Shown here: in pieces, positions 3,600-63,013 of the stretch
Position numbering within the stretch: the first letter of the stretch is position 1
Layout: every line of letters begins with the position of its first letter
Assembly: GCF_902167145.1 (NCBI RefSeq)
Contig: NC_050098.1
Span: forward strand, 115,668,207 to 115,732,206
Reading direction: 5' to 3'
Length of the DNA: 64,000 nucleotides
Source: Zea mays
Lineage: Eukaryota > Streptophyta > Magnoliopsida > Poales > Poaceae
The notes under the pieces: generated by a model
Seen by the model: only the letters and a program-made list of their open reading frames with translations
The model's database searches: none
Told to the model about the DNA's origin: nothing
Made by a program: the position numbers and the translations under genes

Positions 3600-5384
3600 T
3601 GTCGGCGTTTCGAGACCGGGGGGTCCCTAAGCCGACGACTGAGTGTGCCGCGTGCCCCAGCCCAGATGGGTCGAGCGCATGGGCGAGCGCGAAGGGGGGA
3701 GAGCGAGGTGGCCAGAGACGGGCGTGAGAGAGGTGGAAATCCCGAGGCCTTCGTGTTCGTCTCGCGCCCAGGTCGGGTGCGCTTGCAGTAGGGGGTTACA
3801 AGCGTCCACGCGGGTGAGGTAAGCGAGCGGCCCCAAGAGAGCGCCTGTCCCGTCCTCGTCCCGCGCGGCCAACCTTCTCTAAGAAGGCCCTGGTCCTTCC
3901 TTTTATAGGCGTAAGGAGAGGATCCAGGTGTACAATGGGGATGTAGCAGAGTGCTACGTGTCTAGCGGAGGGAGAGCTAGCGCCCTAAGTACATGCCAAT
4001 GTGACAGCCGGAGAGATCTTGGCACCCTGCTGGTGTAATGTCGTGGCTGTCGGAGGAGCAACGGAGCCTGGCGGAGGGACAGCTGTCGGAGCGGTCGAAT
4101 CCTTGCTGACGTCCCCCTGCTTCCGTAAGGGAGTTGAGAGCCGCCGTCGTCACAGGGCTTGCGGGGCGCCATCATTGCCTATCTGGCGGAGCTAGCCAGA
4201 TGGGACACCGGTCTTGCTTTCTGCGGCCCGAGTCGGCTCGGGGTAGGGTGATGATGGCGCTTCCTGTTGACGTGGCTGGCCTGCGCCCTAGGCTGGGCGT
4301 CGTGGAGGCTCCTCCGAAGCCGGGGTCGAGTCTGTCTTCCGTGGCCGAGGCCGAGTCCGAGCCCCTGGGTCGGGCGAGGCGGAGGTCGTTCGGCAGAGGC
4401 CAGGGTGGAGTCCGAGCCCTGGGGTCGGGCGGAGCAGAGTTCGTCATCTTCTGGGGTTGAGCCCGAGTCCGAGCCCTGGGTCGGGCGGAGCGGAGTTCGC
4501 CGTCTTCCGGGGCTTAGCCCGAGTCCGAGCCCTGGGTCGGGCGGAGCGGAGTTCGCCGTCTTCCGGGGCCTAGCCCGAGTCCGAGCCCTGGGTCGGGCGG
4601 AGCGGAGTTCGCCGTCTTCCGGGGCCTAGCCCGAGTCCGAGCCCTGGGTCGGGCAGAGCGGAGTTCGCCGTCTTCCGGGGCTTAGCCCGAGTCCGAGCCC
4701 TGGGTCGGGCGGAGCGGAGTTCGCCGTCTTCCGGGGCCTAGCCCGAGTCCGAGCCCTGGGTCGGGCGGAGCAGAGTTCGCCGTCTTCCGGGGCTTAGCCC
4801 GAGTCCGAGCCCTGGGTCGGGCGGAGCGGAGTTCGCCGTCTTCCGGGGCTTAGCCCGAGTCCGAGCCCTGGGTCGGGCGGAGCGGAGTTTCCTATGGCGC
4901 CTTTGGCAAGGCCTGACTGCCTGTCAGTCTCACTCTGTCAAGTGGCACTGCAGTCGGAGTGGCGCAGGCGGCGCTGTCCTTCTGTCAGACCGGTCAGTGG
5001 AGCGGCGAAGTGACGGCGGTCACTTCAGCTCTGCCGGGGGGCGCGCGTCAGGATAAAGGTGTCAGGCCACCTTTGCGTTAAATGCTCCTGCGACTCGGTC
5101 GGTCGGTGCGGCGATTTAGTCAGGGTTGCTTCTTAGCGAAGGCAAGGCCTCGGGCGAGCCGGAGATGTGTCCGCCGTTAAAGGGGGGCCTCGGGCGAGAC
5201 GGAAATCCCTCGGGGTCGGCTGCCCTTGTCCGAGGCTAGGCTCGGGCGAGGTGTGATTGAGTCGCTCGTATGGACTGATCCCTGACTTAATCGCACCCAT
5301 CAGGCCTCTGCAGCTTTATGCTGATGGGGGTTACCAGCTGAGAATTAGGCGTCTTGAGGGTACCCCTAATTATGGTCCCCGACA
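3600..5384 (-). repeat. Huck 3' LTR
   Basis: This is a 1785-bp copy of the sequence at 29205-30988. It is bounded by TGTCGGCG and CCCCGACA on the plus strand. It is the 3' LTR because the element runs on the minus strand and pol lies to its right. It contains the 56-bp tandem array listed separately. Confidence 0.95.
4461..4889. repeat. 56-bp tandem array in Huck 3' LTR, about 8 copies
   Basis: GCCCGAGTCCGAGCCCTGGG starts at 4461, 4517, 4573, 4629, 4685, 4741, 4797 and 4853, an exact 56-bp period. A more diverged copy lies just upstream at about 4408. Units are GC-rich and differ by one or two bases, for example CAGAGTT for CGGAGTT. Confidence 0.95.
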
Positions 5385-9184: not shown

Positions 9185-9673
9185 TTAAGGGTAGAAGTGA
9201 CGTAGCTGTTTGATGTTCCAAGCGTTGCCGTAGATCTCGCCTTGATTGTTGGCCAGCTTGTATGTTCCAGGCTTCAGAACTTTGGCGATGACGAATGGCC
9301 CCTCCCAGGGGGGCGTGAGCTTGTGCCTCCCTCGGGCGTCTTGCCGCAGCCGAAGCACCAGGTCGCCCACCTGGAGGTCTCGGGGCCGGACCCCTCGGGC
9401 GTGGTAGCGTCGCAGGGACTGCTGGTACCGCGCCGAGTGTAGTAAGGCCCTGTCCCGAGCCTCTTCCAGCTGGTCCAGCGATTCTTCTCGGCTAGCTTGG
9501 TTGCTTTGATCGTTGTAGGCCCTCGTCCTCGGGCAGCCGTATTCCAGGTCAGTGGGCAAGATGGCCTCGGCCCCGTAGACCAGGAAGAACGGCGTGAAAC
9601 CCGTGGCTCGGCTTGGCGTTGTCCTCAGGCTCCAGATCACCGAGGGGAGTTCCTTCATCCATCGCTTGCCGAA
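9185..9673 (-). pseudogene. pol: Huck pol: integrase C-terminal part
   Basis: This is the C-terminal portion of the Huck integrase. It opens with FGKRWMKELPSVIWSLRTTP and GFTPFFLVYGAEAILPTDLE, and continues with VGDLVLRLRQDARGRHKLTPPWEGPF and ends WNIKQLRHFYP plus stop at 9185. Its catalytic half lies 13.5 kb away at 23132 onward because the inner Tekay element landed between NKFG and KRW; CCGAA (9669-9673 and 23132-23136) is the duplicated target. The stretch itself has no internal stops. Confidence 0.93.
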
Positions 9674-13298: not shown

Positions 13299-13727
13299 TC
13301 AAGGTTGGTCAGCAAAGAGTTCAGGGTATTTGGCCTTCAGATCATCTTCTCGTTCCCAGGTTGCTTCTTCCTCCGAGTGGTGACCCCATCTGACTTTGCA
13401 CATTCTAATGGTGTTCCTCCGGGTGACTCTGTCTGCAAACTCCAGAATCTGCGTTGGCTTCTCTATGTATGTCAGATCCTCCTGGACTTCCAAGCCCTCC
13501 ACTGGCAACTGCTCTTCCGGTACTCGCAGACACTTCTTCAATTGCGACACGTGGAACACGTTGTGCACTGCTGACAAGCTCTCTGGTAGGTTGAGCTGGT
13601 AGGCCACTTCTCCACGCTTTGCTTGGATCTGATATGGTCCGACGTACCGGGGTGCTAACTTGCCTTTAACTCCGAACCTTCTGACTCCCCTGATAGGTGA
13701 CACCTTCAGATAGACGTAGTCTCCCAC
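13299..13727 (-). pseudogene. pol: Inner Tekay pol: integrase C-terminus and chromodomain
   Basis: This is the last part of the polyprotein. It starts in the integrase C-terminal barrel (VGDYVYLKVSPIRGVRRFG..GKLAPRYVGPY), runs through QLNLPESLSAVHNVFHVSQLKKC, and ends with a chromodomain (ILEFADRVTRRNTIRM, then KVRWGHHSEEEATWE). Two tryptophans of the chromodomain core are present; one position of the classic aromatic cage is not aromatic, as is common in plant chromoviruses. In the family this domain helps steer integration to heterochromatin. A single TGA (CGA in the ancestor, inferred) separates it in frame from the main pol stretch at 13767. Confidence 0.92.
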
Positions 13728-16790: not shown

Positions 16791-17864
16791 CGCCCAGTGG
16801 CCTTGTTCTCCACAGTGGAAACATCCTCTGCCTCCTCCTTGTGCTGGAGCTGCTTGGTTGCTCTGATTTGTTGCTGGGGCAGGAAGGCGAGGTGCCTGGT
16901 TGCTCTGCTTCTGATACTGATTACCTCCCTGCTGGCTGTTCTGACGATACTGCTGCTGCTATGGGTACTGCCTCTGAAACTGCTGCTGATGCGGACGCTG
17001 ATTCTGATATCCCTGTGGGTGACCAGGCCTGCCTTGCTGAGATGAACTGCCTGAGAAACGTGGACGGCTGATGCTTCCGGACTGGGGTCCACTCATCTTG
17101 CGCTTCCGATCTTCCATATCCTTACGCTTCTTCTCAGTCATAACTGCCCTATCGATCAGGTGCTGGAAGGTGGGGAAGGTGTGATTCATCAGCTGGTAGT
17201 GCAGGGGATCCACCAAACCCCTCATGAACCTGTACTGCCTTTTAGCATCAGTGTTGACATCTTCAGGTGCATAACGAGACAGCTGCAGGAACTTGTCTCT
17301 GTATTCACTAACAGACAGGGGTCCTTGCCTCAGAGCCAGAAACTCCTCCTTCTTCACGATCATCAGTCCCTCTGGCACATGGTACCTACGGAAACTCTCG
17401 CTGAATTCTTCCCAGGTGATGGCTTCGGGGTCAGCATGTGTGACGAGGTAGGACTCCCACCAGGACTGGGCTGCTCCCCTTAGCTGACGGGGACCATACA
17501 GAACCTTCTCCCTGTCGTCACATTGGGCGGTGCGCAGTTCCCTTTCCACTGCGCGCAGCCAGTCTTCTGCATCCATGGGGTCAGCAGAATGGGCGAAGGT
17601 AGGAGGGTGCCCTCTCATGAACTCACCACGCTTATCCCGTGGCACCTGGGGCATCTGCACTTGCAATTGGGGTTGGGGTTGCTGTTGAGCTTGCTGTATG
17701 GCTGCCAGAGTCTGCCCAATGGCCTGCACTGCCTGAGTCTGCATCAAGAACATCTGCTCCACTGACATCGGGGGTGGTGGGGGAGGCTGCCTCTGATGTT
17801 CCTCCTGCCGGTCCTGCTGCTCTTGCTGAGCACGCCTGTTGCATCGGCGCCTGTTGTCAGACAT
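16791..17864 (-). pseudogene. gag: Inner Tekay gag (capsid and zinc knuckle)
   Basis: The gag start is set at the ATG at 17864 (MSDNRRRC), the first methionine with gag-like sequence. The N-terminus is Gln/Pro-rich. The capsid domain follows: DAEDWLRAVERELRTAQC, then AAQSWWESYLV, then WEEFSESFRRYHVPEG, then SVSEYRDKFLQLSRYAPE. The nucleocapsid CCHC knuckle CFHCGEQGHWAMQC lies at about 16780-16822. An amber codon at about 16957, in a run of CAG codons, interrupts the frame between capsid and knuckle; otherwise gag and protease are fused in one frame, as is normal for chromoviruses. Confidence 0.92.
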
Positions 17865-18266
17865 CTGTGGAAGACATTCATACATCAGCATTGATCTTAC
17901 AACCCTTCAGCATAAGAAAAGAGAATACAGAATTCTTCATGACACTGAGTGAACAAAGAGCTTCACTGATCCTCATTATGATTTAACACAACTTCTCAGA
18001 TAGAAAGGAAAATAGAAGTAAATGGTTTCCCAACTAAATAACTGATTTCATTAATATCACTAGCTAAGCCAAACTGCAGGGGAAACCCACATGTTGGCTA
18101 CAGTCATTACAAAGATTCAAATCCAGCACAAGTTCATCATAACAAGCATGTAAGCAACTGATAAGCAAACTAAACTAAATGGAAGCAACTGATAAGCAAA
18201 CTAAACTGACTATCTAAGACTGAGACATCTGACTTAAGAATTATTACAAACTCCAACGCTAACGAT
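17865..18266 (-). other. Spacer between the extra reading frame and gag
   Basis: About 400 bp, A/T-rich, with no coding signal. One short direct repeat (AAGCAACTGATAAGCAAACTAAACT, twice within 18147-18209) is visible. It could act as leader for gag translation or hold a splice acceptor, but neither is shown. Confidence 0.5.
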
Positions 18267-19286
18267 CTAAGGATCCAGATCTATCCTGGTCTTACAGGCA
18301 GGGGAACCATAAGTGTGGTGACCACGTGGCGGCGAGCGGTATGGGTGCTGAGTCCCAACAGGAGCGGGGGAACCACCCTCCTGGTGATGGCGCTCTGCCA
18401 GCTCAGCACGCAACTCCGCAATCTCCGTTCGAGCCCTGCTCAACTCGTCCAGAGAGTGATCCAGCTCAGTGTTAAGCACCGTGACTAGGTTGACTGTACT
18501 GCTCAACCTAGGATTAGCCTCACCAACAGGTGAGACAACCACACTCTCTGTGCTGCCAGTAGGGCGGCGGGGGTAGTACCGAAGGTTAAGACCGTCGGCC
18601 ACCCCACCGAACAAGGAACAGTACTGGGAGAGTGCACGCCGTGCTGCATCCTGCATAGCCGCCTCTGCAGTGTCCCTCTCGGAGATGGAATAGTGCTCCG
18701 AAACGGCCTCCGCACCCCGGAGGTCATCCTCCGGACGGCGAACTAGGCAGGTAGCCTCCCAGCGGTCCGGGTACCTCTCGCGACTGTGCTGGTAGACTAC
18801 ACAACGATACTCGATCGACCAGGTGTGCCGGTCGAAAGCCTGGCGCAGCAAGGTGTCGAGTGCGTCGTGGAAGTGACAACCGCGGGCGGCGTCACGGGTG
18901 ATGGGTCGGGCGACCCATCCTTCCGCCTCCTGTGGCTCAGAGGACTCCGTGCTGTGGTCTGAGTCGTCGTCGTCGGGGTCTCCTCCAGGACCTCCTCCAG
19001 TAGCTCCTCCAACAGCCGGGACGTCCCGCGGTGGTGCAGGGGGCGCCTCCAGCTGGGCAACAGAGGAACGGGGCCTCACGGACTCCACCTCTTGCTGGGG
19101 TGGGGAGGAAGAGCCCTGCTGCTCTCTGTGCTGGCGCCGGCGTTCCTAATCCTCACGCAGGCGGTGGTGCAGTCTCTCCAGGTGACTCGACTGACCGGAC
19201 ACGGTGCGGCGCAGAGGACGCTCCGCAAGTCGAGACGGCAGGAAAGGAATCACCGACTTACGTGCAGTGTGTCTAAGACGAGCCAT
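18267..19286 (-). pseudogene. Extra reading frame ahead of gag with histone H3-like tail
   Basis: Starting at the first ATG after the PBS (19286), this frame has 339 codons with one amber at codon 47 (19146-19148) and ends at 18267. After Met it reads ARLRHTARKSV, matching the histone H3 N-terminus at A1, R2, T6, A7, R8, K9 and S10. A charged and Gly/Asp-rich linker follows. Next comes a compact region (about residues 130-225) with strand-like EYRCVVY and RWEATCLVR and a helix AEAAMQDAARRALSQY, resembling a dsRNA-binding fold. Then comes a coiled-coil stretch (LDELSRARTEIAELRAELAER). No histone fold is present. The function is unknown; the protein is not a standard gag or pol product. The amber fits CAG-to-TAG decay. 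Confidence 0.75.
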
Positions 19287-19544
19287 CTACAAAAGACACC
19301 GTAAGCATAAGAGTAAGAGCAGAACTAATATGACAAGTGAATAAACCATTGACAGAATAAGATAAAAATTTTAACAAGGTATAATATAGTATATATATGT
19401 AGTAAAACATAGGGTTGGTCGAGGTGACCGACTTTTGAAGTAACAACAGAGGTCAAGGTGAGAGGGAAGGTCAATAGTCCTTAGTACGACCAGTGCTACT
19501 CTAGGTCAGCGGTCCTACAGTCAGCACGGCTTTGATACCACTTA
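19287..19544 (-). other. Inner Tekay 5' leader and primer-binding site
   Basis: On the minus strand, four bases after the 5' LTR end, TGGTATCAAAGC (19529-19540) matches the initiator-Met tRNA type of primer-binding site with one change from the common TGGTATCAGAGC. The remaining 240 bp before the first ATG are A/T-rich and carry no obvious gene. Confidence 0.88.
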
Positions 19545-22500: not shown

Positions 22501-23131
22501 GGAGAGGGCGAGTGGGGTTCTGGGCTCAAGTGGCCGGGGGCAGGGTGGTTGCGAGCTTCACGCGCGTCGTGGGCACGGAGACCGCGGCAACGCGCAGCTC
22601 GGGCGGCAGTTACGCGAGGACGAGGGAGCTGACAGCCCGGGCCCGCGAGCAGAGAGAGAGAGGAAAGAGGACGCGGGCGCGGAGAAGGCGGCCGCGCTGA
22701 CGGGCGGGCCCGCCGGGGCAGAGAGAGGAGGGGGCGGGAGAGGCGCGCGCGCGGGATTGGGCCGGCTGGGCCGAAAGGCTGAGGGGGGGGCAGGGTTGGG
22801 CTTCTTTCCCTTTTTCTTTTATTCTGGTATTTGTTTTCCCTTTTCTTTTTATTTTCTCTATTTGATTCAAATCCAAATAAGCCACAAATTCAAATTAGAC
22901 CTTCTAAGAATTATGCACCAAACAAAAGTAGGATTTAGGGTTTGACATGATGCAACATTTCATACTCCCTTGGAGTTTGAGCTAATAGACTATAATTACA
23001 AATAAAATAACCACTCTTCTTCTATAGAAATGAGAAAGAGAAGATTGGGGAAGGATGAGAAAAGAGAAGTAACACCTGAATTTGTGAATATGAGCAAAGA
23101 AATTTTATACCCCCAAATTCAGGGTGTTACA
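19545..23131 (-). repeat. Inner Tekay 5' LTR
   Basis: 3587 bp, paired with 9674-13263. It would contain the promoter for the element's minus-strand transcript. One 3-bp indel and about 50 substitutions separate the two LTRs; roughly 40 of these lie in the GC-rich middle (about 21470-22800). It is followed directly by CCGAA, the target duplication. Confidence 0.95.
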
Positions 23132-25659
23132 CCGAACTTGTTGAGGTCGTTGTAAATCCTGGGCTTGAGCCCTTGTAGAATCATGTCGTTGGCACGCTCT
23201 ACTTGCCCATTCGACATGGGATGAGCCACGGCAGCCCAGTCCACCCGGATGTGGTGATCCTCGCAAAAATCCAAGAATTTTCTGCCGGTGAACTGGGTAC
23301 CGTTGTCAGTGATGATGGAGTTTGGGACCCCGAAGCGATGGATGATGTTGGTGAAGAACGCCACCGCCTGCTCGGACCTGATGCTGTTCAGGGGTCGGAC
23401 CTCGATCCACTTGGAGAATTTGTCGATGGCGACCAGCAGGTGCGTGTAGCCCCCGGGCGCCTTCTGCAAGGGACCGACGAGGTCCAGACCCCATACAGCA
23501 AAGGGCCAGGTGATGGGTATCGTCTGTAGAGCCTGAGCAGGCAGGTGGGTCTGCTTCGCATAGAATTGGCACCCTTCGCAGGTGCGGACAATTCTAGTGG
23601 CGTCAGCCACCGCCGTTGGCCAGTAGAAGCGTTGCCGGAAAGCATTCCCGACAAGTGCTCGAGGCGCTGCATGATGGCCGCAAGCCCCCGAGTGTATTTC
23701 TTGCAGGAGTTCCTGACCTTCGGCGATGGAGATGCATCGCTGGAGGATGCCCGAGGGGCTGCGGTGGTAGAGCTCCTCCTCATCGCCCAGCAAGACGAAC
23801 GACTTGGCGCGTCGCGCTACCCGCCGAGCCTCGGCTTGGTCGGGGGGTAGCTCTCCTTGGCGGAGATATTGCAGGTACGGGGTCTGCCAATTTCGGTCAG
23901 GCGTGGCCCCGCTCTGCTCCTCCTCGACGTGCAGTGCCTCGGCCCCGGGGGCCGAGGGTACCTCGGGCCGAACCGAGGTCGCCTCGGGCTGAGCCGAGGG
24001 TGCCTCGGGCTCGGGCGTGTCGTCGATCTTGACGGAGGGCTGATGCAGATCCTGGGAGAAGACGTCCGGGGGAACCGTCGTTCGCCCCGAGGCTATTTTT
24101 GCCAGCTCGTCCGCAGTCTCGTTGTAGCGCCGAGCGACGTGGTTAAGCTCGAGCCCGTAGAACTTGTCTTCCAGGCGCCGAACCTCATCGCAGTAGGCCT
24201 CCATCTTCGGGTCGCGGCAGTGGGAGTTTTTCATGACTTGGTCGATGACGAGCTGCGAGTCACCGCGGGCGTCGAGGCGTCTGACCCCTAGCTCGATGGC
24301 GATCCGCAACCCGTTGACCAGAGCCTCGTACTCAGCCACATTGTTGGACGCTGGGAAATGGAGGCGTAGCACGTAGCGTAGGTGTTTCCCAAGGGGCGAG
24401 ATGAAGAGCAGGCCCGCGCCGGCTCCCGTCTTCATCAGTGACCCATCGAAAAACATGGTCCAGAGCTCCGGTTGGATCGGAGCCGTCGGCAGCTGGGTGT
24501 CGACCCATTCGGCTACGAAGTCCGCCAATACCTGGGACTTGATGGCCTTCCGAGGGGCGAACGAGATTGTCTCGCCCATGATTTCCACCGCCCACTTTGC
24601 GATCCTGCCCGAGGCCTCTCGGCACTGGATGATCTCCCCCAGGGGGAAGGATGACACCACAGTTACCGGATGAGACTCGAAGTAATGTCGCAACTTTCGC
24701 CTCGTCAGGATCACTGCATACAGCAGCTTCTGAACTTGTGGGTAGCGGATCTTGGTCTCGGACAGTACCTCGCTGACGAAGTAGACTGGCCTCTGAACGG
24801 GCAATGCATGCCCTTCTTCTTGCCTCTCGACCACAATCGCGGCGCTAACCACCTGAGTGGTCGCAGCGACGTAGACCAAGAGGGCTTCTCCATCGGCTGG
24901 GGGCACCAAGATAGGCACCTTTGTAAGGAGCGCCTTCAGGTTCCCGAGAGCTTCCTCGGCCTCAGGGGTCCAAGCGAAACACTCGGTCTTCCTTAAGAGG
25001 CGGTACAGAGGCAGACCTCTTTCGCCGAGGCGTGAGATGAAGCGGCTCAGGGCCGCGAGACATCCCATGACCCTCTGTACGCCTTTTAAGTCCTTGATGG
25101 GCCCCATGCTGGTGATAGCTGCGATCTTCTCCGGGTTGGCTTCGATGCCTCGCTCGGAGACGATGAACCCCAAGAGCATGCCCCGGGGCACCCCGAAGAC
25201 ACACTTCTCGGGATTGAGCTTGACTCCTTTCGCCTTGAGACATCGGAATGTCACTTCAAGGTCGGAGAGGAGGTCGGAAGCCTTCCTTGTCTTGACTATG
25301 ATGTCATCGACGTAGGCCTTGACTGTGCGACCGATGTGTTCGCCGAACACATGGTTCATGCACCGCTGGTACGTCGCGCCCGCATTCCTCAAACCGAACG
25401 GCATGGTGACATAGCAGTACATGCCGAAGGGCGTGATGAAAGAAGTCGCGAGCTGGTCGAACTCTTTCATCTGGATTTGGTGATACCCTGAGTAGGCATC
25501 GAGGAAGGATAGGGTTTCGCACCCAGCAGTGGAATCCATGATTTGATCGATGCATGGTAGAGGGTAGGGAACCTTCAGACATGCTTTGTTGAGACCAGTG
25601 TAGTCTACACACATCCGCCATTTCCCCCCTTTCTTCCTCACAAGCACAGGGTTGGCAAG
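23132..25659 (-). pseudogene. pol: Huck pol: RT, two RNase H domains, integrase core
   Basis: A continuous stretch of over 830 codons. RT: LVRKKGGKWRMCVDYTGLN, SGYHQIQM, MPFGLRNAGATYQ and YVDD at about 112-115. Ordinary RNase H: LLVYVAAT..VVSAAIVVE. Archaeal-type RNase H: MFFDGSLMKTGAGAG, NNVAEYEALVNGLR and GDSQLVIDQV. Integrase: HSGACGHH, then CEGCQ, then D in WGLDLVGPL, D in ITDNGTQFTG and E in NGQVERAN. The left edge is the Tekay insertion; its remaining C-terminus is at 9185-9673. An amber at 25660-25662 (Trp TGG in the ancestor, inferred) closes the upstream side. Confidence 0.93.
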
Positions 25660-29204: not shown

Positions 29205-30988
29205 TGTCGGCGTTTCGAGACCGGGGGGTCCCTAAACCGACGAGTGAGTGTGCTACGTGCCCCAGCCCAGATGGGTCGAGCGCGTGGGCGAGCGCGAAGG
29301 GGGAGAGCGAGGTGGCCGGAGACGGGCGTGAGAGAGGTGGAAATCCCGCGGCCTTCGTGTTCGTCCCGTGCCCAGGTCGGGTGCGCTTGCAGTAGGGGGT
29401 TACAAGCGTCCACGCGGGTGAGGTAAGCGAGCGGCCCCAAGAGAGCGCCTGTCCCGTCCTCGTCCCGCGCGGCCAACCTTCTCTAAGAAGGCCCTGGTCC
29501 TTCCTTTTATAGGCGTAAGGAGAGGATCCAGGTGTACAATGGGGATGTAGCAGAGTGCTACGTGTCTAGCGGAGGGAGAGCTAGCGCCCTAAGTACATGC
29601 CAATGTGGCAGCCGGAGAGATCTTGGTACCCTGCTGGTGTAATGTCGTGGCTGTCGGAGGAGCAACGGAGCCTGGCGGAGGGACAGCTGTCAGAGCGGTC
29701 GAATCCTTGCTGACGTCCCCCTGCTTCCGTAAGGGAGTTGAGAGCCGCCGTCGTCACAGGGCTTGCGGGGCGCCATCATTGCCTATCTGGCGGAGCTAGC
29801 CAGATGGGACACCGGTCTTGCTTTCTGCGGCCCGAGTCGGCTCGGGGTACGGTGATGATGGCGCTTCCTGTTGACGTGGCTGGCCTGCGCCCTAGGATGG
29901 GCGTCGTGGAGGCTCCTCCGAAGCCGGGGTCGAGTCTGTCTTCCGTGGCCGAGGCCGAGTCCGAGCCCCTAGGTCGGGCGAGGCGGAGGTCGTTCGGCAG
30001 AGGCCAGGGCGGAGTCCTAGCCCTGGGGTCGGGCGGAGCGGAGTTCGTCGTCTTCTGGGGTTGAGCCCGAGTCCGAGCCCTGGGTCAGGCGGAGCGGAGT
30101 TCGCCGTCTTCCGGGGCTTAGCCCGAGTCCGAGCCCTGGGTCGGGCGGAGCGGAGTTCGCCGTCTTCCGGGGCCTAGCCCGAGTCCGAGCCCTGGGTCGG
30201 GCGGAGCGGAGTTCGCCGTCTTCCAGGGCCTAGCCCGAGTCCGAGCCCTGGGTCGGGCGGAGCGGAGTTTGCCGTCTTCCGGGGCTTAGCCCGAGTCCGA
30301 GCCCTGGGTCGGGCGGAGCAGAGTTCGCCGTCTTCCGGGGCCTAGCCCGAGTCCGAGCCCTGGGTCGGGCGGAGCGGAGTTCGCCGTCTTCCGGGGCTTA
30401 GCCCGAGTCCGAGCCCTGGGTCGGGCGGAGCGGAGTTCGCCGTCTTCCGGGGCTTAGCCCGAGTCCGAGCCCTGGGTCGGGCGGAGCGGAGTTTCCTATG
30501 GCGCCTTTGGCAAGGCCTGACTGCCTGTTAGTCTCACTCTGTCAAGTGGCACTGCAGTCGGAGTGGTGCAGGCGGCGCTGTCCTTCTGTCAGACCGGTCA
30601 GTGGAGCGGCGAAGTGACGGCGGTCACTTCGGCTCTGCCGGGGGGCGCGCGTCAAGATAAAGGTGTCAGGCCACCTTTGCGTTAAATGCTCCTGCGACTT
30701 GGTCGGTCGGTGCGGCGATTTAGTCAGGGTTGCTTCTTAGCGAAGGCAAGGCCTCGGGCGAGCCGGAGATGTGTCCGCCGTTAAAGGGGGGCCTCGGGCG
30801 AGACGGAAATCCCTCGGGGTCGGCTGCCCTTGTCCGAGGCTAGGCTCGGGCGAGGCGTGATCGAGTCGCTCGTATGGACTGATCCCTGACTTAATCGCAC
30901 CCATCAGGCCTCTGCAGCTTTATGCTGATGGGGGTTACCAGCTGAGAATTAGGCGTCTTGAGGGTACCCCTAATTATGGTCCCCGACA
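29205..30988 (-). repeat. Huck 5' LTR
   Basis: 1784 bp, direct repeat of 3600-5384. It is followed by the target duplication CTCGT at 30989-30993. It contains the same eight-copy 56-bp array as the other LTR (30065-30494). Confidence 0.95.
30065..30494. repeat. 56-bp tandem array in Huck 5' LTR, about 8 copies
   Basis: Units begin at 30065, 30121, 30177, 30233, 30289, 30345, 30401 and 30457. Copy number equals that of the other LTR. Most unit-specific variants are not shared between the two LTRs, so they arose after insertion. Confidence 0.93.
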
Positions 30989-31095: not shown

Positions 31096-34000
31096 TGTCA
31101 CACCCGGCTTTAAGGAACAAAGCCAGGTGCATCTCATACATGCGCCAAGAAGACAACATATATAATAACAGAGTGTATAGAGATAAATGTCACAATAACA
31201 TCAGAGTATTTATTACATAGCGGAAGACTTATTACAAAATAAAAGAGTAAATATAAAACGAACTAAGGATCGTCGGCGCAAATGTCAACTAAGAATCGCC
31301 ACCTAGATCAGATCATACTCCTCGCCTTGTGGCTCCTCCTGAACCACCTGTTCTTCTCCTGTGGGGGGGTGTAAGACAGCAAGAGTGAGCTCACATACGT
31401 TCATCGCTCAACAAGTTGTGGGGAATAATGTGGCATGAACTCACCAAAGGTGGGAGTTCATGAAGTGTAAGGCTGATCAACAAAATAGAGGCTGAGGCTG
31501 AGCATTGCTTTTATAAGTTGGACAAAATTTTATTAGCAATTACTAAGTGTAAGTAAATACCAAACCTTAATAATAATAAAGAAAAGTAATAATAAAATAA
31601 TCCCAGATGCGATGCAAATGTCAAATTAAATTTAAGTTCCATAAATTAATCATGTGAGGGTCCGAGCCGCTCATGACCGTGAGCACGGCTAGTATACCAG
31701 TTTTACACTCTGCAGAGGTTGCGCATCTTTACCCACAAGTCATGTTACCCATTTGCCAAGAGATGGCCAATCCCATACACCTCTACCGAGGAGGCGAGGC
31801 AGGGTAACACTACGAGGCCTTTACAAAGTTCCACTAGCTTCAGAAATCCCGCTACTGTTTATAGGAAGCTCCAATGCAGGGTTCTTGCCTGACCGCCATC
31901 GCAGCAAAATCAACCAAGGACCTCCCTACACTGACCACTCCCCTACTGCCCTTGCCCCTTTCGGGTAAGGAAGACCTCCACTAGCTTTCCTAGTTAATCA
32001 GCCAAGGGCGTCCCATTATACCCTTGTGGTAGCACTGTTTTCCCGGGTGGTCGCTCCATGTTCCCATTAACATAATGATCTTAACATGAACAGTAGTAAT
32101 AACAAGATAATAAAAGACTAATCATGAATCAAGTATCTTCATACCCAAATCCACATTAAGCAATAGCATGTACTACCCAAAAATTTAGTAGTAAAACCAG
32201 TGGTGAAACAAGGTATAAAGATAGTCAAAATCTAGGGTAACCTATTGGGTCCCATCAAAATTAACCTATGCAGATCATTATAATTAACAAGAACATGGCT
32301 GGGAAAAGTAAGTGATCAAGGGCACAACTTGCCTTCAATGAGCTCCTGCTCAGCTACTTCTACTTGTTGAACCTCAGTTTCCACAGTGGCTTGCTCGTCT
32401 ATTCGCATCAACACAATACATACATAGTATAGCCAAAATCAACATCACACCAAACATGTAAATAAAATGTACAGTAAAAATCTACACATTAAAATGAGAT
32501 CATAAGAACTGGAATCACTAAATTTGGAGTTATAGAATTCAAGTTATGAATTTCCTAAGGTTTAATGTGCTTGAAATATGATTAAATGATAAATTAATTT
32601 TCTAACTGTTTTCATGTCAAAAAAGAGACACTAAATGGTAGAGAATATTATTACAAAATTTTAGAAATTTGAATGGCTCAATTTGGACTAAAAATGGATT
32701 TTCTATGATTTATACAAGTTCTAGGGTTTATTTTCATATTAAAAATCCAATTTCTAATTCATTTAATCGATTTAAAACAATTTCTGGATCGGGCCTCGAT
32801 TTCCAGAGAAGTCAGGGGTTAAACCAGAGTTTTCCCCAAGACACAACTTACTGTTACCGAGGATGGCGGGTTGTTTTCAAATAAACAGAGGGTCTCTTAT
32901 GAAAAAGTGCCTGGCCGAAGGGGTATCGGCCAACGTGAGCCGCCCGATCATCTATGGACGGCTTGGATTAGGTTTCTTCTACAAGCAAACCGGTACGCAC
33001 TTCAGGCCCTTGGATCCGAGATCCACGGACCGCAACACCCCATGCCCAGATCCAACCCAAGCCCTTGATCTACAGATCGGTGGTCACGATTTAACGCGGC
33101 AAGGGTTATGCGCAGCATCTAATCGTGGTTGTCCATTGAGATCTAACGGTGCACAACTCTTTCCCCAATCTGACATTGGGCACGGCGGCGCTCTAGTGCC
33201 GCACGGCGGAGGGCTCGTCGGCGATAGCCATGCCGGTGCGCAGATGCCCCAATCCCCGCTCCTAAGGGTGCTACGTGAAGCGCAGAACATAGGGAATAGG
33301 GAGGGGTGGTTCTCACCGACAATAGAGGTCCGGTCGATGCTGTCCACGGCGGATTGCGAGCCTGCGGCGGCGTTGAGGCTCCGGTAAGAAATTGCCTCCG
33401 CACGACTGCCGATCACGCCCCCAGATGTCCACAAGCGCCTTCGTGAAGACTTGGAGAAGCTTCGGGCCACGGCACACGGACCCCGTCAGCAGCGTGTGGG
33501 TGCAGTCGATGGCGGCGGACGTCTAGGCTGTACTGGCCATGGCGCGCGGCGGAAACGGTGGTTCGCCCATCTCTCTGATCTCGGCGGAGTGCTAATGGCG
33601 GCTAGGTTAGGAGGGGAAGAAGGACACCGCACCTAGGTCTACTACTTCTATAGCCTCAGAAGGCTGGTCCGAGTGCCAACGACGGCTTCCGCAATCCGCG
33701 GTGGTGGGCATGGCGTCTGGCGTCGTGGGGAATCAGGGCATATGCGAGCGAGGGCGAGAAGAGAGGAGGTCACGCGGTCTCGGCTAGCCAGCAGGGCGAA
33801 GTCAGCGCAGAAATGGCGGAGGCCGTAACGACTTCAGCTGGCGCCGGAGTCGCGCGATCGCGAAGATCCAGCCAGCGTGATCCGGTTCACGCGGGGAAGA
33901 AGAAGTCCGCGCCTGCAAGGTGGGTCCCACTGACAGTCCCACGGAGCAGCGCGAGTTGTTTTGGTGAGGGGATGACACGCGGGGTCCACACAGAGGTGGG

Positions 34001-34761
34001 ACGCAACAGACCGCGTGGGGAGGTCGGCCACTGGTTCTGTGACCCCACCGGTCGGTGTATGGGGCGAGAGGGCAGCACGTGGGCTGAGGGAGCATGGTGA
34101 AGTGGGCCTGCTAGAGGGATTCGGCCCAGGTGCAGGTAGGAGCCTTTTTTTATTCTTTCCTTTTTCTTATTTTCTTTTCTATACATTCATATTCTAATAT
34201 TTAAGCTTCAAACTTGAGTTTGTGGATCCATCGTAAAATTCAAGTGCATAAAATATACTCTTCATCAATATGAAATAGTATTTTTATTTATATATTCTAT
34301 TTATTTTTATTTAGTACTTACTAATGCTTCTCTTTCTCCATTTCTTTTTACCATTTCTGATTTATTTCCTTGATTTCAAATTTAAGTTTGAATTATGTCA
34401 TGATCCTCATATTTGAGTTAAGTATCCACATTTCAAATCCTAGTATGAGAAGAATATATTTATCTATTTATTTTCATTTGTATAACATTTTCTTCCTCCT
34501 CTATTCTCATGGTTTTGTTTTCAATTTAGAGGTTAAATTCCCTGGATCCATTGATATGCTATTAATGACGTATTTATTTTATTATCCAAAAATGCACAAT
34601 CAAGTAAAACTCAGCATGATGCAAGATTTACTTTGGTGTCTTTGGTTATTTACTTTTTTTTGATGGTATTCATTCACATGTGATAGTAAATGAATATAAC
34701 TCACACATATAGATAAAGGAAATATTCTCTTATCACATGATTTACAAATTTGGGTATTACA
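31096..34761 (-). repeat. Defective Tekay 3' LTR
   Basis: 3666 bp, from TGTCACACCCGGC to GGGTATTACA on the plus strand, paired with 38268-41942. It has a GC-rich core at about 32860-34130 between A/T-rich arms. It shares the GAGCACGGCT/CTCTGCAGAG block and the GCACTGTTTTCCCGGGTGGTC block with the inner Tekay LTR. Confidence 0.95.
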
Positions 34762-38267: not shown

Positions 38268-41200
38268 TGTCACACCCGACTTTAAGGAACAAAGCCAGGT
38301 GCATCTCATACATGCGCCAAGAAGACAACATATATAATAACAGAGTGTATAGAGATAAATGTCATAATAACATCAGAGTATTTATTACATAGCGGAAGAC
38401 TTATTACAAAATAAAAGAGTAAATATAAAACGAACTAAGGATCGTCGGCGCAAATGTCAACTGAGAATCGCCACCTAGATCAGATCATACTCCTCGCCTT
38501 GTGGCTCCTCCTGAACCACCTGTTCTTCTCCTATGGGGGGGTGTGAGACAGCAAGAGTGAGCTCACATACGTTCATCGCTCAACAAGTTATGGGGAATAA
38601 TGTGGCATGAACTCACCAAAGGTGGGAGTTCATGAAGTGTAAGGCTGATCAACAAAATAGAGGCTGAGGCTGAGCATTGCTTTTATAAGTTGGTCAAAAT
38701 TTTATTAGCAATTACTAAGTGTAAGTAAATACCAAACCTTAATAATAATAAAGAAAAGTAATAATAAAATAATCCCAGATGCGATGCAAATGTCAAATTA
38801 AATTTAAGTTCCATAAATTAATCATGTGAGGGTCCGAGCCGCTCATGACCGTGAGCACGGCTAGTATACCAGTTTTACACTCTGCAGAGGTTGCGCATCT
38901 TTACCCACAAGTCATGTTACCCATCTGCCAAGAGATGGCCAATCCCATACACCTCTACCGAGGAGGCGAGGCAGGGTAACACTACGAGGCCTTTACAAAG
39001 TTCCACTAGCTTCAGAAATCCCGCTACAGTTTATAGGAAGCTCCAATGCAGGGTTCTTGCCTGACCGCCATCGCAGCAAAATCAACCAAGGACCTCCCTA
39101 CACTGACCACTCCCCTACTGCCCTTGCCCCATTCGGGTAAGGAAGACCTCCACTAGCTTTCCTAGTTAATCAGCCAAGGGCGTCCCATTATACCCTTGTG
39201 GTAGCACTGTTTTCCCGGGTGGTCGCTCCATGTTCCCATTAACATAATGATATTAACATGAACAGTAGTAATAACAAGATAATAAAAGACTAATCATGAA
39301 TCAAGTATATTCATACCCAAATCCACATTAAGCAATAGCATGTACTACCCAAAAATTTAGTAGTAAAACCAGTGGTGAAACAAGGTATAAAGATAGTCAA
39401 AATCTAGGGTAACCTATTGGGTCCCATCAAAATTAACCTATGCAGATCATTATAATTAACAAGAACATGGCTGGGAAAAGTAAGTGATCAAGGGCACAAC
39501 TTGCCTTCAATGAGCTCCTGCTCAGCTACTTCTACTTGTTGAACCTCAGTTTCCACAGTGGCTTGCTCGTCTATTCGCATCAACACAATACATACATAGT
39601 ATAGCCAAAATCAACATCACACCAAACATGTAAATAAAATGTACAGTAAAAATCTACACATTAAAATGAGATCATAAGAACTGGAATCACTAAATTTGGA
39701 GTTATAGAATTCAAGTTATGAATTTCCTAAGGTTTAATGTGCTTGAAATATGATTAAATGATAAATTAATTTTCTAACTGTTTTCATGTCAAAAAAAGAG
39801 ACACTAAATGGTAGAGAATATTATTACAAAATTTTAGAAATTTGAATGGCTCAATTTGGACTAAAAATGGATTTTCTATGATTTATACAAGTTCTAGGGT
39901 TTATTTTCATATTAAAAATCCAATTTCTAATTCATTTAATCGATTTAAAACAATTTCTGGATCGGGCCTCGATTTCCAGAGAAGTCAGGGGTTAAACCAG
40001 AGTTTTCCCCAAGACACAGCTTACTGTTACCGAGGATGGCGGGTTGTTTTCAAATAAACAGAGGGTCTCTTATGAAAAAGTGCCTGGCCGAAGGGGTATC
40101 GGCCAACGTGAGCCGCCCGATCATTTATGGACGGCTTGGATTAGGTTTCTTCTACAAGCAAACCGGTACGCACTTCAGGCCCTTGGATCCGAGATCCACG
40201 GACCACAACACCCCATGCCCAGATCCAACCCAAGCCCTTGATCTACAGATCGGTGGTCACGATTTAACGCGGCAAGGGTTATGCGCAGCATCTAATCGTG
40301 GTTGTCCATTGAGATCTAACGGTGCACAACTCTTTCCCCAATCTGACATTGGGCACGGCGGCGCTCTAGTGCCGCACGGCGGAGGGCTCGCCGGCGATAG
40401 CCATGCCGGTGCGCAGATGCCCCAATCCCCGCTCCTAAGGGTGCTACGTGAAGCGCAGAACATAGGGAATAGGAAGGGGTGGTTCTCACCGACAATAGAG
40501 GTCCGGTCGATGCTGTCCACGGCAGATTGCGAGCCTGCGGCGGCGTTGAGGCTCCGGTAAGAAATTGCCTCCGCACGACTGCCGATCACGCCCCCAGATG
40601 TCCACAAGCGCCTTCGTGAAGACTTGGAGAAGCTTCGGGCCACGGCACACGGACCCCGTCAGCAGCGTGTGGGTGCAGTCGATGGCGGCGGACGTCTAGG
40701 CTGTACTGGCCATGGCGCGCGGCGGAAACGGTGGTTCGCCCATCTCTCTGATCTCGGCGGAGTGCTAATGGCGGCTAGGTTAGGAGGGGAAGAAGGACAC
40801 CGCACCTAGGTCTACTACTTCTATAGCCTCAGAAGGCTGGTCCGAGTGCCAACGACGGCTTCCGCAATCCGCGGTGGTGGGCATGGCGTCTGGCGTCGTG
40901 GGGAATCAGGGCATATGCGAGCGAGGGCGAGAAGAGAGGAGGTCACGCGGTCCCGGCTAGCCAGCAGGGCGAAGTCAGCGCAGAAATGGCGGAGGCCGTA
41001 ACGACTTCAGCTGGCGCCGGAGTCGCGCGATCGCGAAGATCCAGCCAGCGTGATCCGGTTCACGCGGGGAAGAAGAAGTCCGCGCCTGCAAGGTGGGTCC
41101 CACTGATAGTCCCACGGAGCAGCGCGAGTTGTTTTGGTGAGGGGATGACACGCGGGGTCCACACAGAGGTGGGACGCAACAGACCGCGTGGGGAGGTCGG

Positions 41201-41942
41201 CCACTGGTTCTGTGACCCCACCGGTCGGTGTATGGGGCGAGAGGGCAGCACGTGGGCTGAGGGAGCATGGTGAAGTGGGCCTGCTAGAGGGATTCGGCCC
41301 AGGTGCAGGTAGGAGCCTTTTCTTTTTTTTATTCTTTCCTTTTTCTTATTTTCTTTTCTATACATTCATATTCTAATATTTAAGCTTCAAACTTGAGTTT
41401 GTGGATCCATCGTAAAAGTCAAGTGCATAAAATATACTCTTCATCAATATGAAATAGTATTTTTATTTATATATTCTATTTATTTTTATTTAGTACTTAC
41501 TAATGCTTCTCTTTCTCCATTTCTTTTTACCATTTCTGATTTATTTCCTTGATTTCAAATTTAAGTTTGAATTATGTCATGATCCTCATATTTGAGTTAA
41601 GTATCCACATTTCAAATCCTAGTATGAGAAGAATATATTTATCTATTTATTTTCATTTGTATAACATTTTCTTCCTCCTCTATTCTCATGGTTTAGTTTT
41701 CAATTTAGAGGTTAAATTCCCTGGATCCATTGATATGCTATTAATGACGTATTTATTTTATTATCCAAAAAATGCACAATCAAGTAAAACTCAGCATGAT
41801 GCAAGATTTACTTTGGTGTCTTTGGTTATTTACTTTTTTTTTGATGGTATTCATTCACATGTGATAGTAAATGAATATAACTCACACATATAGATAAAGG
41901 AAATATTCTCTTATCACATGATTTACAAATTTGGGTATTACA
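38268..41942 (-). repeat. Defective Tekay 5' LTR
   Basis: 3675 bp; near-identical partner of 31096-34761. Length differences come from homopolymer or pyrimidine runs, for example the T-rich run near 41320. GTATT follows directly at 41943. Confidence 0.95.
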
Positions 41943-44240: not shown

Positions 44241-46585
44241 GAGACAAGGATAGTTGCATGTGTGCCCAATAATTTGGGAGGTCCTACCACACATATGAAG
44301 GTTCCAGATAAAAAAAGATATAAAATATTAGTCAATAGATCTACACTCTTATTTCTAACACGTGCGAATATGAATGACAATATGGTTTCATCAAGCACTT
44401 CTCCCCTTCAAAGGTTTCAAGGGGAGAAGGATTGGTTTATGCCTCGTGTGTGTGAAGAACATATGAATTGAGTGCAATAATTAACATATCAAACACAAGG
44501 GGTTGAACGATGTAACATAGAGTAATTAATGGCAACAAATTAATTTCATATATGCAAGTCAGGCTCACCCATCGAGTTACTTCGAATATCAGATACTGAA
44601 TGATAGAGGAGAAATATTTGAATTTACTTTGGCATTATAATACCTCTGGTGGGTTTAGAAAAAACCAACAAAAACCTAATAAGGCACAAAAAATACCTCT
44701 AGACTTCTAAAATTCTAAAAATAAATTCTAGAGTTAGTCTCTCTATCTATCTAAATAAATAGATTTCTAAAGTTGTCTGGGTCATTTTTAAAAAAAGCTT
44801 TAACCAAATTTTTAGAAAAAACGTTTTTTTGAATGGATAAAAAAATCAAAATTTTATGACATCAAATTAGTATGATTAGATATATCATAGGATATATTTT
44901 ATAATATGATCATTAGATTTATGGTATAGTTGTTTGTCTTTCTTATAAAGTAGTTAAACTTAAGATAGTTTGAATTGCATGAATTATAAAAAAAATGATT
45001 TATCTGGAGACAGAGAAGTGCATAGAGACATAAGATGCACAAACAAAATATCTAGAGGTCATATCAAGAGGTTTAAAAAACAGATTAGATTTTAGAAGAC
45101 GGAAACTATCAATAAAATGTGGAAGTTTCCTGATACAATTTAATCAACGTCTAAAGACATCTTTACAAATGTTCACCACAAAAACACGAGATAAAGAAAA
45201 CTAGCAATCATGAATCTTTTTTTATTAGAGCTGAATCTAGTTCTTGTAAGTTTCTAGATGTATTTGCACAAGAGGCTATGTGGAACTCTCAATCCATTTG
45301 GATATTTGAATTCCAATTTTTTTTACTATAGATGGGTACTAAACTTGGTCTAGCTGCTCGGTAGGTTGTCAAATATCTCAAAGTGATAAGAGAGATGGGC
45401 CACCGGGGAGACGTGCATTACAGCGGCCCAGCACACTCTACACTGTAACGTGGGCCCTAGGGGAAAAATAATGCTACCAAACCAAACACTTTGTTTTTAC
45501 ATGGTGGAGATAGTGACTTTCAGTACTTCAATTAGTCCAGTCCAGAACGAGAGGCAGGACCGTAGGCAGCGGCGGGCCAAGGGGTTTCATGAATATTCAT
45601 TGAATATCCAAGTTTTTAGTGTTTTATAGTAATTTATCACTAATATATTACACAAAATAGTGTTGGAACACTAATTTCTTTAATATTTTGAATTTTTAAT
45701 ACACAATCTTAAATGTCCGGCCCGTTTCTGACCGTAGGAGGAACGATGAAGTCCAGAGCAAAGAAAAAAAAGTTGGCGACGATGTGCTGCTGCATCTTCA
45801 GCTAACATCTCATTTTGGTGGTCAACTTATGTGCGTCTCTTGCTCAAAAATTTGTGGTCTGAATTCTTGAATATGTTCCGTGGATCCTTGTATGGATCTT
45901 GCTGCCGAGTTCTTCTTACCTGTTCATGAAGTAAAACCAGAACTGCGAAATTAGGTTTCAATTTGCATCTAAGGCTACTTTGATCTCCACAGTACATGTT
46001 CAAGTTTCGTAATAGTAAAAACATCCAGTTGGGCTGCAGTACCATTGTTTTCTTTACCGGCACTGAGCAAATATCAACCGCATATTGCCTGTATATTGTA
46101 TTATGCCATTTAAGTTTCTTGTGACCACATAGAAACAGAATTATTTTTTTAATATCAACACTTGGAAGCTGAGTTAACAATGGATTCCAGACGAAGGAAT
46201 TTTATTGGTTCCAGATACTCATTTTTTTGGGGGGTTTCATACCTTCAAAATATTCGGATTTTATTGTTTTCAGTTTAAGAATTTGCACGTAGATTTGTTA
46301 GGAAGACAGGAAAGGTAAGAGGACCCACACGCCAAGTAAAAAAAAAATTATTCGCAAAACTGATCAGTTTAGTTATTTTATATATTTATTCAAAAGGTTC
46401 TTCATAGAAGGAAACCCTGCTGTGCTCGATTAGGCAAGTCGATTTGACCCTAGCGATGGTGAATGCACATGCTCTCATGAGTGAGCTCGATGAGTCACAG
46501 AGCGTTGTGTCAGGCAGGTGGCTATATCTTGACCATGCTTTGGTTGTCATAAAACCATGGCACTTATGAGTTTGACTCAGTCTTA
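44241..46585. other. Unassigned A/T-rich intergenic sequence
   Basis: About 2.3 kb with no open frame that I believe, no terminal repeats and no RNA gene. Short frames near 44262-44471 (plus) and 45827-46180 (minus) show no domain and look like chance. It may be decayed transposon sequence or original intergenic DNA. Confidence 0.4.
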
Positions 46586-46763
46586 GGGGGTGTTTGGTTT
46601 ATAGGGACTAAACTTTAGTCCCTCCACTTTATTCCATTTTAATTTATAAATTGTTAAATAGGGAAACTAAAATAGAGTTTTAGTTTCTATATTTAGTAAT
46701 TTAGGGACTAAAATAGAATAAAATGAGGGACTAAAAATTAGTCCCTAGAAACCAAACAGCCCC
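46586..46763. mobile_element. Tourist-type MITE
   Basis: 178 bp with long near-perfect terminal inverted repeats (about 38 bp). The left end is GGGGGTGTTTGGTTTATAGG and then GACTAAACTTTAGTCCCT; the right end is its reverse complement with a few changes, ending CCAAACAGCCCC. It is flanked by TTA on both sides (46583-46585, 46764-46766), the target duplication of the PIF/Harbinger superfamily. It has no coding capacity, and it would need transposase from an autonomous relative. Confidence 0.92.
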
Positions 46764-47315
46764 TTACTGAGTCACTTTCATCCATAATTGCTGTGCACGC
46801 CAGTTTCCAACCGGAACACTAGCTTCGGGGATGGGTAACGGGCTGACGGCACACGGCAGTGTGAGACCGCGACACGGCAGTGTGAGACGGCGATGGCCTT
46901 CCAGCGGCGACGCGGCTTGCTTGTACTGGACTGGCTGGCTTGCATCTGCCTCTCTCTTGTCGTTCATTTGCTTGCATTAGATGCTGATTAGATGCTGCAT
47001 CAGCTGCTACAAAATTACATTTTGATGGAGTGTCAAATAATAAAAAACATATGATTGTAATCTTAGATTTTTTTAATCTTGTATTAGAAATCGGACACTC
47101 TAGATTTCAGATGAGAATACATGTTTCGTGTTACTCTGGCATCTAGTTTTCTTATTTGTAATATATGGTTCAACCATTCTAGCTGGAAAACTTTTGCATT
47201 CTGTTTGTAAGCCACATCAGGCTAATCGAAACAAAACAGGAAAAAGAAACTAGACACTATCATATGCGCTGGGCAGTGGGCCACGTGCCGTCCGCTGGTC
47301 TGACTCAGACATGTA
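46764..47315. other. Intergenic spacer
   Basis: Between the MITE and the Harbinger element. A short minus-strand frame (46764-46967) has no recognisable domain. Nothing else is seen. Confidence 0.4.
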
Positions 47316-50367: not shown

Positions 50368-51461
50368 TTACACACGGCTAGACCCCCTATGCTGCCACAT
50401 TTGAGTTGATATAGCATCTCTTTGTTGGGTCCAAGTTTGGTTATCATGAACTGCATCAATGGCACCTTCCACATTGGCAATGTTTGTAGCCCAAGTGTTT
50501 TCCGAAGGAAAATGTGAATCCAGCCCATATCTAAGAATCTAGTTGTGAAGGATGGTGCATGCTAACACAAGCTTAACATGTGTCGGATACGGATGAAAAG
50601 GCTTGTTGTATAGAATCTTGAATCTATTCTTCAAGGCACCGAAAGCTCTCTCAATTGTTACTCGGAGGGAAGAATGCCTTAGATTGAAGAGTTCTCTTGG
50701 ATTGAGTGGATGATTTCCTCCACCAAATTCTCTTAGATGATATCTTGTGCTATGGTATGGAGGTAGAAATCCAGGTCTAACACCATAACCAGCGTCAACT
50801 AAATAGAATTTTCCTAGTTCAAAGAATTCTAGTTAGTTTGATTGCGAAGTAATTTAAAAGCATATTCAAACATGTTATGGAATTACTTGGTGGCACAATG
50901 AGGCCATCAGATCTTTCCAATGCATCCGATAGAATCAAGGCATCATGAGCTGAACCTTCCCAGCCAGCAAGAACATAGGTAAATCTCAAATCAAAATCAA
51001 CAGCTGCTAGAACATTTTGTGTCGTTGTGTGCTTTCTACCCATGAAGGCTGCTCTCATTGAACTAGGAACCCTAGCCAATACATGTGTGCCATCAATGGC
51101 ACCAACGCAATCCTAAATGTTTAAGTTAAAATGATTAAAACAAAGACAATACTAACATATTTCAATTAAATGGTTAATGTGCAATCCTAAATTGAATGGA
51201 AAGTACCTTGAAGTACGGGTACCATCTTCTACTAACATGAATTTTGGGATGGACATAGGTGGAAGGAGGGGTGATCATCTCAGTGCGTAGCTCACCAATT
51301 GCATTTAACACCTCGTGAAAATATCTACTAATAGTCTCAGTAGATCTTCGGAAGGTGAATTTGAGAACCCTAAACCTTTGATTATGACCAACAACATGTA
51401 GAAACATTGCAACTTGTTCTTTTATAGAACTGTGAATACTATCCCTTAGCAAGTGTCGAGA
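50368..51461 (-). pseudogene. PIF/Harbinger transposase, 5' end truncated
   Basis: Three exons can be traced: 51461-51207, 51112-50887 and 50813-50368. Introns of 94 and 73 bp have GT..AG ends and keep the frame. The protein shows the DDE triad: D in VGAIDGTHV, D in FYLVDAGYG and E in VTIERAFGALK. The N-terminal helix-turn-helix part includes FRRSTETISRYFHEVL. One amber lies after ACTILHN (Trp in relatives, inferred). The first part of the gene is missing because the Copia LTR starts at 51462. The enzyme would cut and paste the transposon at TWA-type targets and mobilise MITEs of the same type. Confidence 0.87.
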
Positions 51462-51855
51462 TGTGAATCATCTAGGCCCCTTTGGTGATGTTTTGGTAAT
51501 TAATGATAACTGCTTGTGGACTAACTGTTCTTGGAGGAATAAGAATGCAGGGTTGGACCACATAGAACAGCAAATGTTGGAGAATCATAACCATTGGTTG
51601 TGGATCAGATGAAGGCAAAGGTAAAATATAGGTTTTGTTTTTGCCGGTCTTGAGTTTAGTGAAGATACCTGACCGGATTAGTAGGCTAGATAGCCGTACT
51701 ATTAAGAGGGGTCAATGTCTTTTGATCTGTGTAAAGCTTAGTGCCTCATAGAGCATCAAGTAGTTGCATTTGCATGAGGACTAACAACGCTTCAAATTTC
51801 GTGAGTTAAAAGATCTTTCAAAAGCAAGTTTGAAGATTGCAATGTGTTGGATGCG

Positions 51856-62164: not shown

Positions 62165-62789
62165 GGCCTCTCCTTTGTGGCAATTGATGCCAAAGGGGGA
62201 GAGAAGTGATGAGAAGAGAAGTTGTCCGGTGTCTCCTTTAGGGGGAGTTGGTGGTCTATGTGGACATTAAGACCATGCATATGCATATTTACCTTTTTAT
62301 GTCGCATGCATTAGTTTATGTCTTACGCATTTGGAACTGGCTTGAACTATTAACTCTATGTCGTATGTCTATGTCGTATGTCTGTGGACTATTATCTGTA
62401 ATATTCTGTGGGTTGAACTATGTCTTAGTTCAAATTACTCTCTGTGTGGTTGATCGAGGATATTGCTGCGCTTACTCTATGGATCATCTCTTGTATGCTT
62501 TGATAACCATGATTTTAGGAAACTCTCCATCAAACTCCGATATATTATGTGTGTTATATCTTCAGCTTCAAATAATCCTGCACACACTTAGGGGGAGCCT
62601 TTCTTACATACTGAGTTTTTTATTGGGATTTATCTATCTCTCGGACAGAACTTCAAATCTAGATAAGTCCTATGAAACTCATCTCCAAAAATCTATCCTA
62701 TACCTTAGGTATGAGAGAGATTTGGAAAAACTAAACTTCTCTTTAATATATTATGTAGTGTTGCCATCAATTACCAAAAAGGGGGAGAT
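62165..62789 (+). other. Copia 3' non-coding region and polypurine tract
   Basis: Purine-rich GGGGGAG runs recur (AAAGGGGGAGAGAAGTG near 62192, TTTAGGGGGAGTTGG near 62236, TTAGGGGGAGCC near 62588). The functional tract is AAAAAGGGGGAGAT at 62776-62789, directly before the 3' LTR. Several GGGGGAG copies upstream are a known habit of SIRE-type elements. Confidence 0.8.
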
Positions 62790-63013
62790 TGTGAATCATC
62801 TAGGCCCCTTTGGTGATGTTTTGGTAATTAATGATAACTTCTTGTGGACTAACTGTTCTTGGAGGAATAAGAATGCAGGGTTGGACCACATAGAACAGCA
62901 AATGTTGGAGAATCATAACCATTGGTTGTGGATCAGATGAAGGCAAAGGTAAAATATAGGTTTTGTTTTTGCCGGTCTTGAGGAGTTTAGTGAAGATACC
63001 TGACCGGATTAGT
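62790..63013 (+). repeat. Copia 3' LTR, first 224 bp only
   Basis: Matches 51462-51682 with one substitution and a 3-bp indel, then stops abruptly after GACCGGATTAGT. The remaining approximately 1.47 kb of LTR, including its palindrome array, is missing. Confidence 0.92.

Follow-up and report, generated by a model that had tools for sequence, protein, structure and literature searches.

A histone H3-like N-terminus in the ORF0 frame of a maize Tekay-type chromovirus

A complete long terminal repeat (LTR) retrotransposon lies on the minus strand of a 64,000-nucleotide stretch of the Zea mays genome (contig NC_050098.1, positions 115,668,207 to 115,732,206; hereafter the window), and it carries, between its primer-binding site (PBS) and gag, an extra reading frame that opens like the tail of histone H3 and is interrupted by one stop codon. 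The frame is most likely ORF0, the 5' additional open reading frame (5'aORF), of a Tekay/Del-lineage chromovirus of the Retrosat2/RIRE8 type, an assignment made from its position between the PBS and gag and not from sequence similarity. The explanation that we favor, with a probability of roughly 0.6, is that ORF0 encodes a nuclear, RNA-associated accessory protein and that the H3 likeness is a coincidence within its basic N-terminus.

The ATG at 19286 on the minus strand opens MARLRHTARKSV. Positions 19286 to 19251 encode Met followed by 11 codons, ARLRHTARKSV, which bears out the H3-like start claimed in the first-pass annotation of this DNA: in exact register, H3 residues 1–10 are matched at A1, R2, T6, A7, R8, K9, and S10 (7/10), including the A-R-K-S/T motif, with R at position 4. 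The likeness stops at residue 10. When the same 10-residue score was applied to the 2,218 ATGs on both strands of the window, 1,243 scored 0, 749 scored 1, 194 scored 2, 28 scored 3, three scored 4, and one scored 7, the ATG at 19286 being the sole start above 4/10. Among 127,940 frame positions scored against H3 1–10, a score of 5 was reached at 36, 6 at none, and 7 at one. The chance of at least 7/10 per start was estimated at 3.3e-7 from the base composition of the window, 2.4e-7 from the composition of ORF0, 4.4e-7 from that of its first 45 residues, and 7.1e-7 from proteome-like frequencies with Ala assumed at 25% after Met. With H3 as the sole pre-chosen target, 0.0005–0.0016 starts with at least 7/10 are expected per window; the expectation is 0.03–0.09 without the ATG requirement and 0.05–0.16 over an assumed set of about 100 peptides of equal fame. 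These expectations are per window, with more than one window presumably in play, and the H3 target was picked after the match had been seen; the likeness deserves attention without settling the matter. A degenerate pattern search gave one match against none expected, and it was discarded as evidence since the pattern had been trimmed to fit the sequence. Elsewhere in the window, 56-bp tandem repeats occur in both LTRs of an outer element (4334–4889 and 29938–30493), and one minus-strand frame of these repeats repeatedly yields ARTRAKPRKT-like peptides with 5/10 H3 positions, which shows how readily a partial likeness to H3 can arise.

The extent of the frame differs from the first-pass annotation in two respects. 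The ATG at 19286, described there as the first after the PBS, is the fourth, as ATGs at 19410, 19349, and 19308 precede it with frames of 45, 20, and 11 codons; the long frame has no earlier ATG, and the codon immediately before this one is TAG. Furthermore, the frame is interrupted by an in-frame TAG at 19148–19146 that had been missed, and translation from 19286 gives MARLRHTARKSVIPFLPSRLAERPLRRTVSGQSSHLERLHHRLRED, 46 residues, before this stop (first piece, 19286–19146). Beyond the TAG, the same frame is open to 18270 and forms a second piece of 292 codons plus stop (19145–18267). Third-position GC is 0.64 in the 292-codon piece and 0.67 in codons 14–46, and this agreement suggests that a single gene was interrupted once. 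Codons 1–13, where the H3-like part lies, are set apart by a third-position GC of 0.38, a value from a small sample of 13 codons.

The element that hosts this frame has a 5' LTR at 23131–19545 and a 3' LTR at 13263–9674, which are 98.5% identical; their Kimura two-parameter (K2P) divergence of 0.0141 (41 transitions and 9 transversions over 3,587 sites) corresponds to about 0.54 million years at an assumed rate of 1.3e-8 per site per year. A 5-bp target-site duplication, CCGAA on the plus strand, flanks it at 9669–9673 and 23132–23136. It is nested in another LTR element, the outer one mentioned above, with LTRs at 3600–5384 and 29205–30988 and the duplication CTCGT. The PBS, TGGTATCAAAGCC, starts at 19540 and extends to 19528, and the gag-pol region (17864–13299) runs from the gag ATG at 17864 in one frame down to a stop at 13301, broken by stops at 16961, 16070, and 13769. 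Profile searches with Pfam identified gag and the protease (RVP_2), with RVT_1, RNase H, Integrase_H2C2, and SH3_Tf2-1 over their cut-offs, and rve at 31.8 bits, just under its cut-off of 32.6. The order of protease, reverse transcriptase (RT), RNase H, and integrase, with a chromodomain at the integrase C-terminus, fits a Tekay/Del chromovirus, the assignment coming from domain order and the C-terminal chromodomain and not from RT phylogeny. Despite its interruptions, the copy has decayed little.

ORF0 is known from Retrosat2, RIRE3, and RIRE8 and from homologs in maize, sorghum, and Brachypodium (PMC3485330). The present element resembles these in the location of the frame between the PBS and gag, in its LTRs of more than 3 kb with similar ends, and in being a grass-type Tekay (PMC3485330; PMC11728184). 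The maize and sorghum 5'aORF proteins are reported to show weak structural similarity to a double-stranded RNA-binding motif (DRBM) protein, with TM scores of 0.35–0.37 (PMC11728184), and the predicted architecture here combines an alpha/beta domain with a long C-terminal helix, as is reported for those proteins. Unlike published ORF0, the copy described here has a stop codon, and it is likened to them by position and architecture, not by sequence. The putative ORF0 product would consist of a basic N-terminus, an acidic disordered linker, a domain resembling the double-stranded RNA-binding domain (dsRBD) with an alpha-beta-beta-beta-alpha order, and a C-terminal helix that may form a coiled coil; the linker, which is acidic and Pro-rich, the domain, and the helix fall in the second piece. 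As a whole, the second piece was modeled poorly (mean pLDDT 48.6). A 98-residue segment (18893–18600) modeled alone was predicted to adopt a helix-strand-strand-strand-helix arrangement with a mean pLDDT of 71.9 and a pTM of 0.63, and a long helix was predicted at residues 218–255 of the second piece (18494–18381). In structure searches, the 98-residue model weakly resembled dsRNA-binding and hibernation-factor folds, with unrelated folds among the matches and all scores under the trusted level.

The 98-residue segment matched no Pfam family at E<=10, and no dsRBD profile of the PF00035 type; a viral fold library yielded nothing at E 0.001 (best 0.021). The second piece gave no convincing match to PDB sequences, the one match at E<=10 being ribosomal mS45 (E 3.3). 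Compared with dsRBD proteins such as HYL1, Loquacious, and DHX9, and with the hibernation-factor fold, ORF0 lacks a Pfam match and the KKxAK-like motif of dsRBDs, and its structural scores are below the trusted level. A dsRBD-like alpha-beta-beta-beta-alpha fold is a weakly supported prediction for ORF0. The ORF0 protein would probably serve to bind the RNA of the element or to interfere with silencing by small RNAs. Homology models published for ORF0 gave it the role of a catabolic enzyme (PMC3485330), unlike the RNA-associated protein proposed here. In the copy at hand, with ORF0 broken after 46 codons, no full protein would be made.

Functional mimicry of the H3K9 site is an alternative that we regard as unlikely. 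It proposes that the initiator Met is removed and ARLRHTARKS exposed, that K9 is methylated by SUVH-type enzymes of the plant and recognized by methyl-lysine readers of the host, and that the silencing machinery is thereby recruited or titrated beside an RNA-binding domain. The register is exact from the N-terminus, the T6–S10 core is complete, and A1 would be exposed if Met were cleaved, as it generally is ahead of Ala. The 5'aORF proteins of grass Tekay elements are predicted to be nuclear (PMC11728184), which would place such a tail in a setting exposed to silencing. ORF0 is under constraint overall, with an average Ka of 0.2574 and Ks of 1.6471 among four Oryza elements, but it diverges fast in comparison with ORF1 (Ka 0.0783), and the ORF0 proteins of Retrosat2 and Sorsat2 share only about 10% similarity (PMC3485330). 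Methylated H3-like motifs of G9a/GLP are reported to create HP1 binding sites (PMC9768651), and the start of ORF0 shares the A-R-K-S core with these automethylation sites (PMC9768651, PMC10611923); unlike them, its likeness is N-terminal and covers ten residues, it is known here from sequence alone, and the host and the proteins are unrelated. Against mimicry, the evidence comes from a single copy with a stop at codon 47 (the TAG at 19148–19146), in which the frame is not intact, and the likeness does not continue past residue 10. Among the titles and abstract openings listed in the literature searches, none concerns a plant retrotransposon with a tail like that of H3, a scope that leaves outside Steinbauerova et al. 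2011, which PMC11728184 cites for these frames; a text search for peptide strings likewise returned, among the titles listed, only unrelated papers. Neither PMC3485330 nor PMC11728184 uses the word "histone" in its main text or mentions an H3-like start; the additional-ORF review PMC7264820 contains neither "histone" nor "Tekay". From one copy, the verdict on mimicry is leaning to chance. An extended form, in which grass Tekay ORF0 joins an N-terminal H3K9 mimic to a dsRBD-like domain and acts as a decoy where small-RNA and H3K9-methylation silencing meet, offering a methylatable tail to SUVH enzymes and H3K9me readers while holding the RNA of the element, appears somewhat more doubtful.

The first-pass annotation had also suggested that the tail could bind the chromodomain of the element itself. 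This domain (13457–13302), at the C-terminus of the integrase, is type II-like, with Trp at the second position of the methyl-lysine cage and His at the third and last, where Clr4 and 2m2l_A have Tyr; the first cage position lies beyond the aligned stretch, and by eye no aromatic residue lines up there. The Chromo profile scored 21.6 bits in the gag-pol scan, under the cut-off of 25.1, and 24.4 bits in a separate Pfam search. Type II chromodomains are defined by the absence of the first aromatic residue of the cage and, in most cases, of the last (PMC3059260), and in seed-plant chromoviruses such domains reportedly have no aromatic cage (PMC3059260, PMC6317226). The suggestion is weakened by both the residue and these reports. 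Self-binding was set aside as a candidate, and because the last cage position is His, reading of the tail by the element's own chromodomain is unlikely. For mimicry in general, a chromodomain without at least the last cage residue is a further point against.

Capture of the ORF0 start from a host H3 gene, with subsequent decay, is very improbable. It is favored by ATGGCTCGT at the start and by the register of the identities, and it is opposed by codon 3 (CTT), which differs from every Thr codon at both of the first two positions, and by the absence of anything similar past residue 10. The 46-residue frame gave no histone in a phmmer search of PDB sequences, its one match at E<=10 being ribosomal protein mL100 (E 1.3), and it matched no Pfam family; so short a likeness is difficult for either program to pick up, and this silence is weak evidence. 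Full histone descent of ORF0 was rejected, as nothing matches past residue 10 in either search.

A constraint at the nucleotide level could also account for part of the motif. The sequence CAC/GTAAGT (19264–19256, minus strand) overlaps the A-R-K-S codons, agrees with the splice-donor consensus at 8/9 positions, and is the best donor-like site from the LTR end to gag. A U-rich, acceptor-like stretch (19311–19287) ends in TTTTGTAG and abuts the ORF0 ATG. The donor could help to make a spliced gag RNA, and RNA signals would then explain K9 and, in part, R8 and S10. The interval between ORF0 and gag (18266–17865, minus strand) is AT-rich and intron-like in appearance, with a GC content of 0.27–0.43 in 60-base windows from 18240 to 17940; it ends in CTTCCACAG right before the gag ATG at 17864 and mirrors the leader 5' of the ORF0 ATG, both ATGs directly following acceptor-like AGs. 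Over the 150 bases 5' of the ORF0 and gag ATGs, T content is 0.44 and 0.39, compared with 0.22 and 0.14 downstream, and both of these leaders are poor in GC. We consider this explanation improbable, and more so than either form of mimicry. When the bases of the 1,676-base region were shuffled 2,000 times, 30% of the shuffles contained GTAAGT at least once. Ranked simply by pyrimidine content, the acceptor TTTTGTAG came 11th and CTTCCACAG fell outside the best 12. Splicing this donor onto the gag-ATG acceptor would yield no fusion but a frame of 10 residues that terminates shortly after entering gag. For these reasons, the splice-like arrangement may likewise be due to chance.

A second Tekay-like element lies at 41942–31096 on the minus strand, with LTRs at 38268–41942 and 31096–34761 (K2P 0.006) and the duplication GTATT. 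Its interior of 3,506 bases has seven minus-strand ATG frames of at least 40 codons, the longest of 166 codons and the first starting at 37726, more than 500 bases past the PBS, and searches with the two ORF0 pieces found nothing in it at E<=1. By its LTRs this element is younger, and it may be non-autonomous and mobilized by other elements. Just past the PBS, both elements share TGACTGTAGGAC (19523–19512 and 38245–38234, minus strand), possibly a packaging, dimerization, or splicing signal; BLAST of the remaining leaders of the two elements found only the PBS and one other 10-base match. Relatives were sought in viral contigs, genome contigs, plasmids, and E. coli genomes, none of them a plant collection, so that their silence has no bearing on conservation. 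Among viral contigs, the second ORF0 piece from 19088 on gave 27 pattern matches and pol gave 12, with 0 confirmed in each case, the H3-like tail pattern gave 0, and a degenerate RT pattern gave 0 exact matches. The genome contigs gave 50 pattern matches to pol with 0 confirmed, the plasmids none to the second ORF0 piece, and the E. coli genomes none to 17864–19543.

Two further repeats were observed in the window. At 46573–46774, an inverted self-match of about 200 bases with 80% identity has both arms on the same coordinates and is an imperfect palindrome. A stretch of about 229 bases is present twice in direct orientation, at 51458–51682 and 62785–63013, the copies being 97.8% identical and 11 kb apart.

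Many copies of the element are present in public grass genomes. The overlap with splice-like signals bears on how conservation among them would be read, as ARKS could be kept for the RNA and not for the protein. ORF0 has no established function (PMC3485330), yet it resides in a family of grass retrotransposons that is abundant and may still be active. Should the H3-like start not be conserved, it would be a case of a ten-residue likeness arising by chance; if it is conserved, the encounter of a plant element with the H3K9me silencing pathway could be tested directly.
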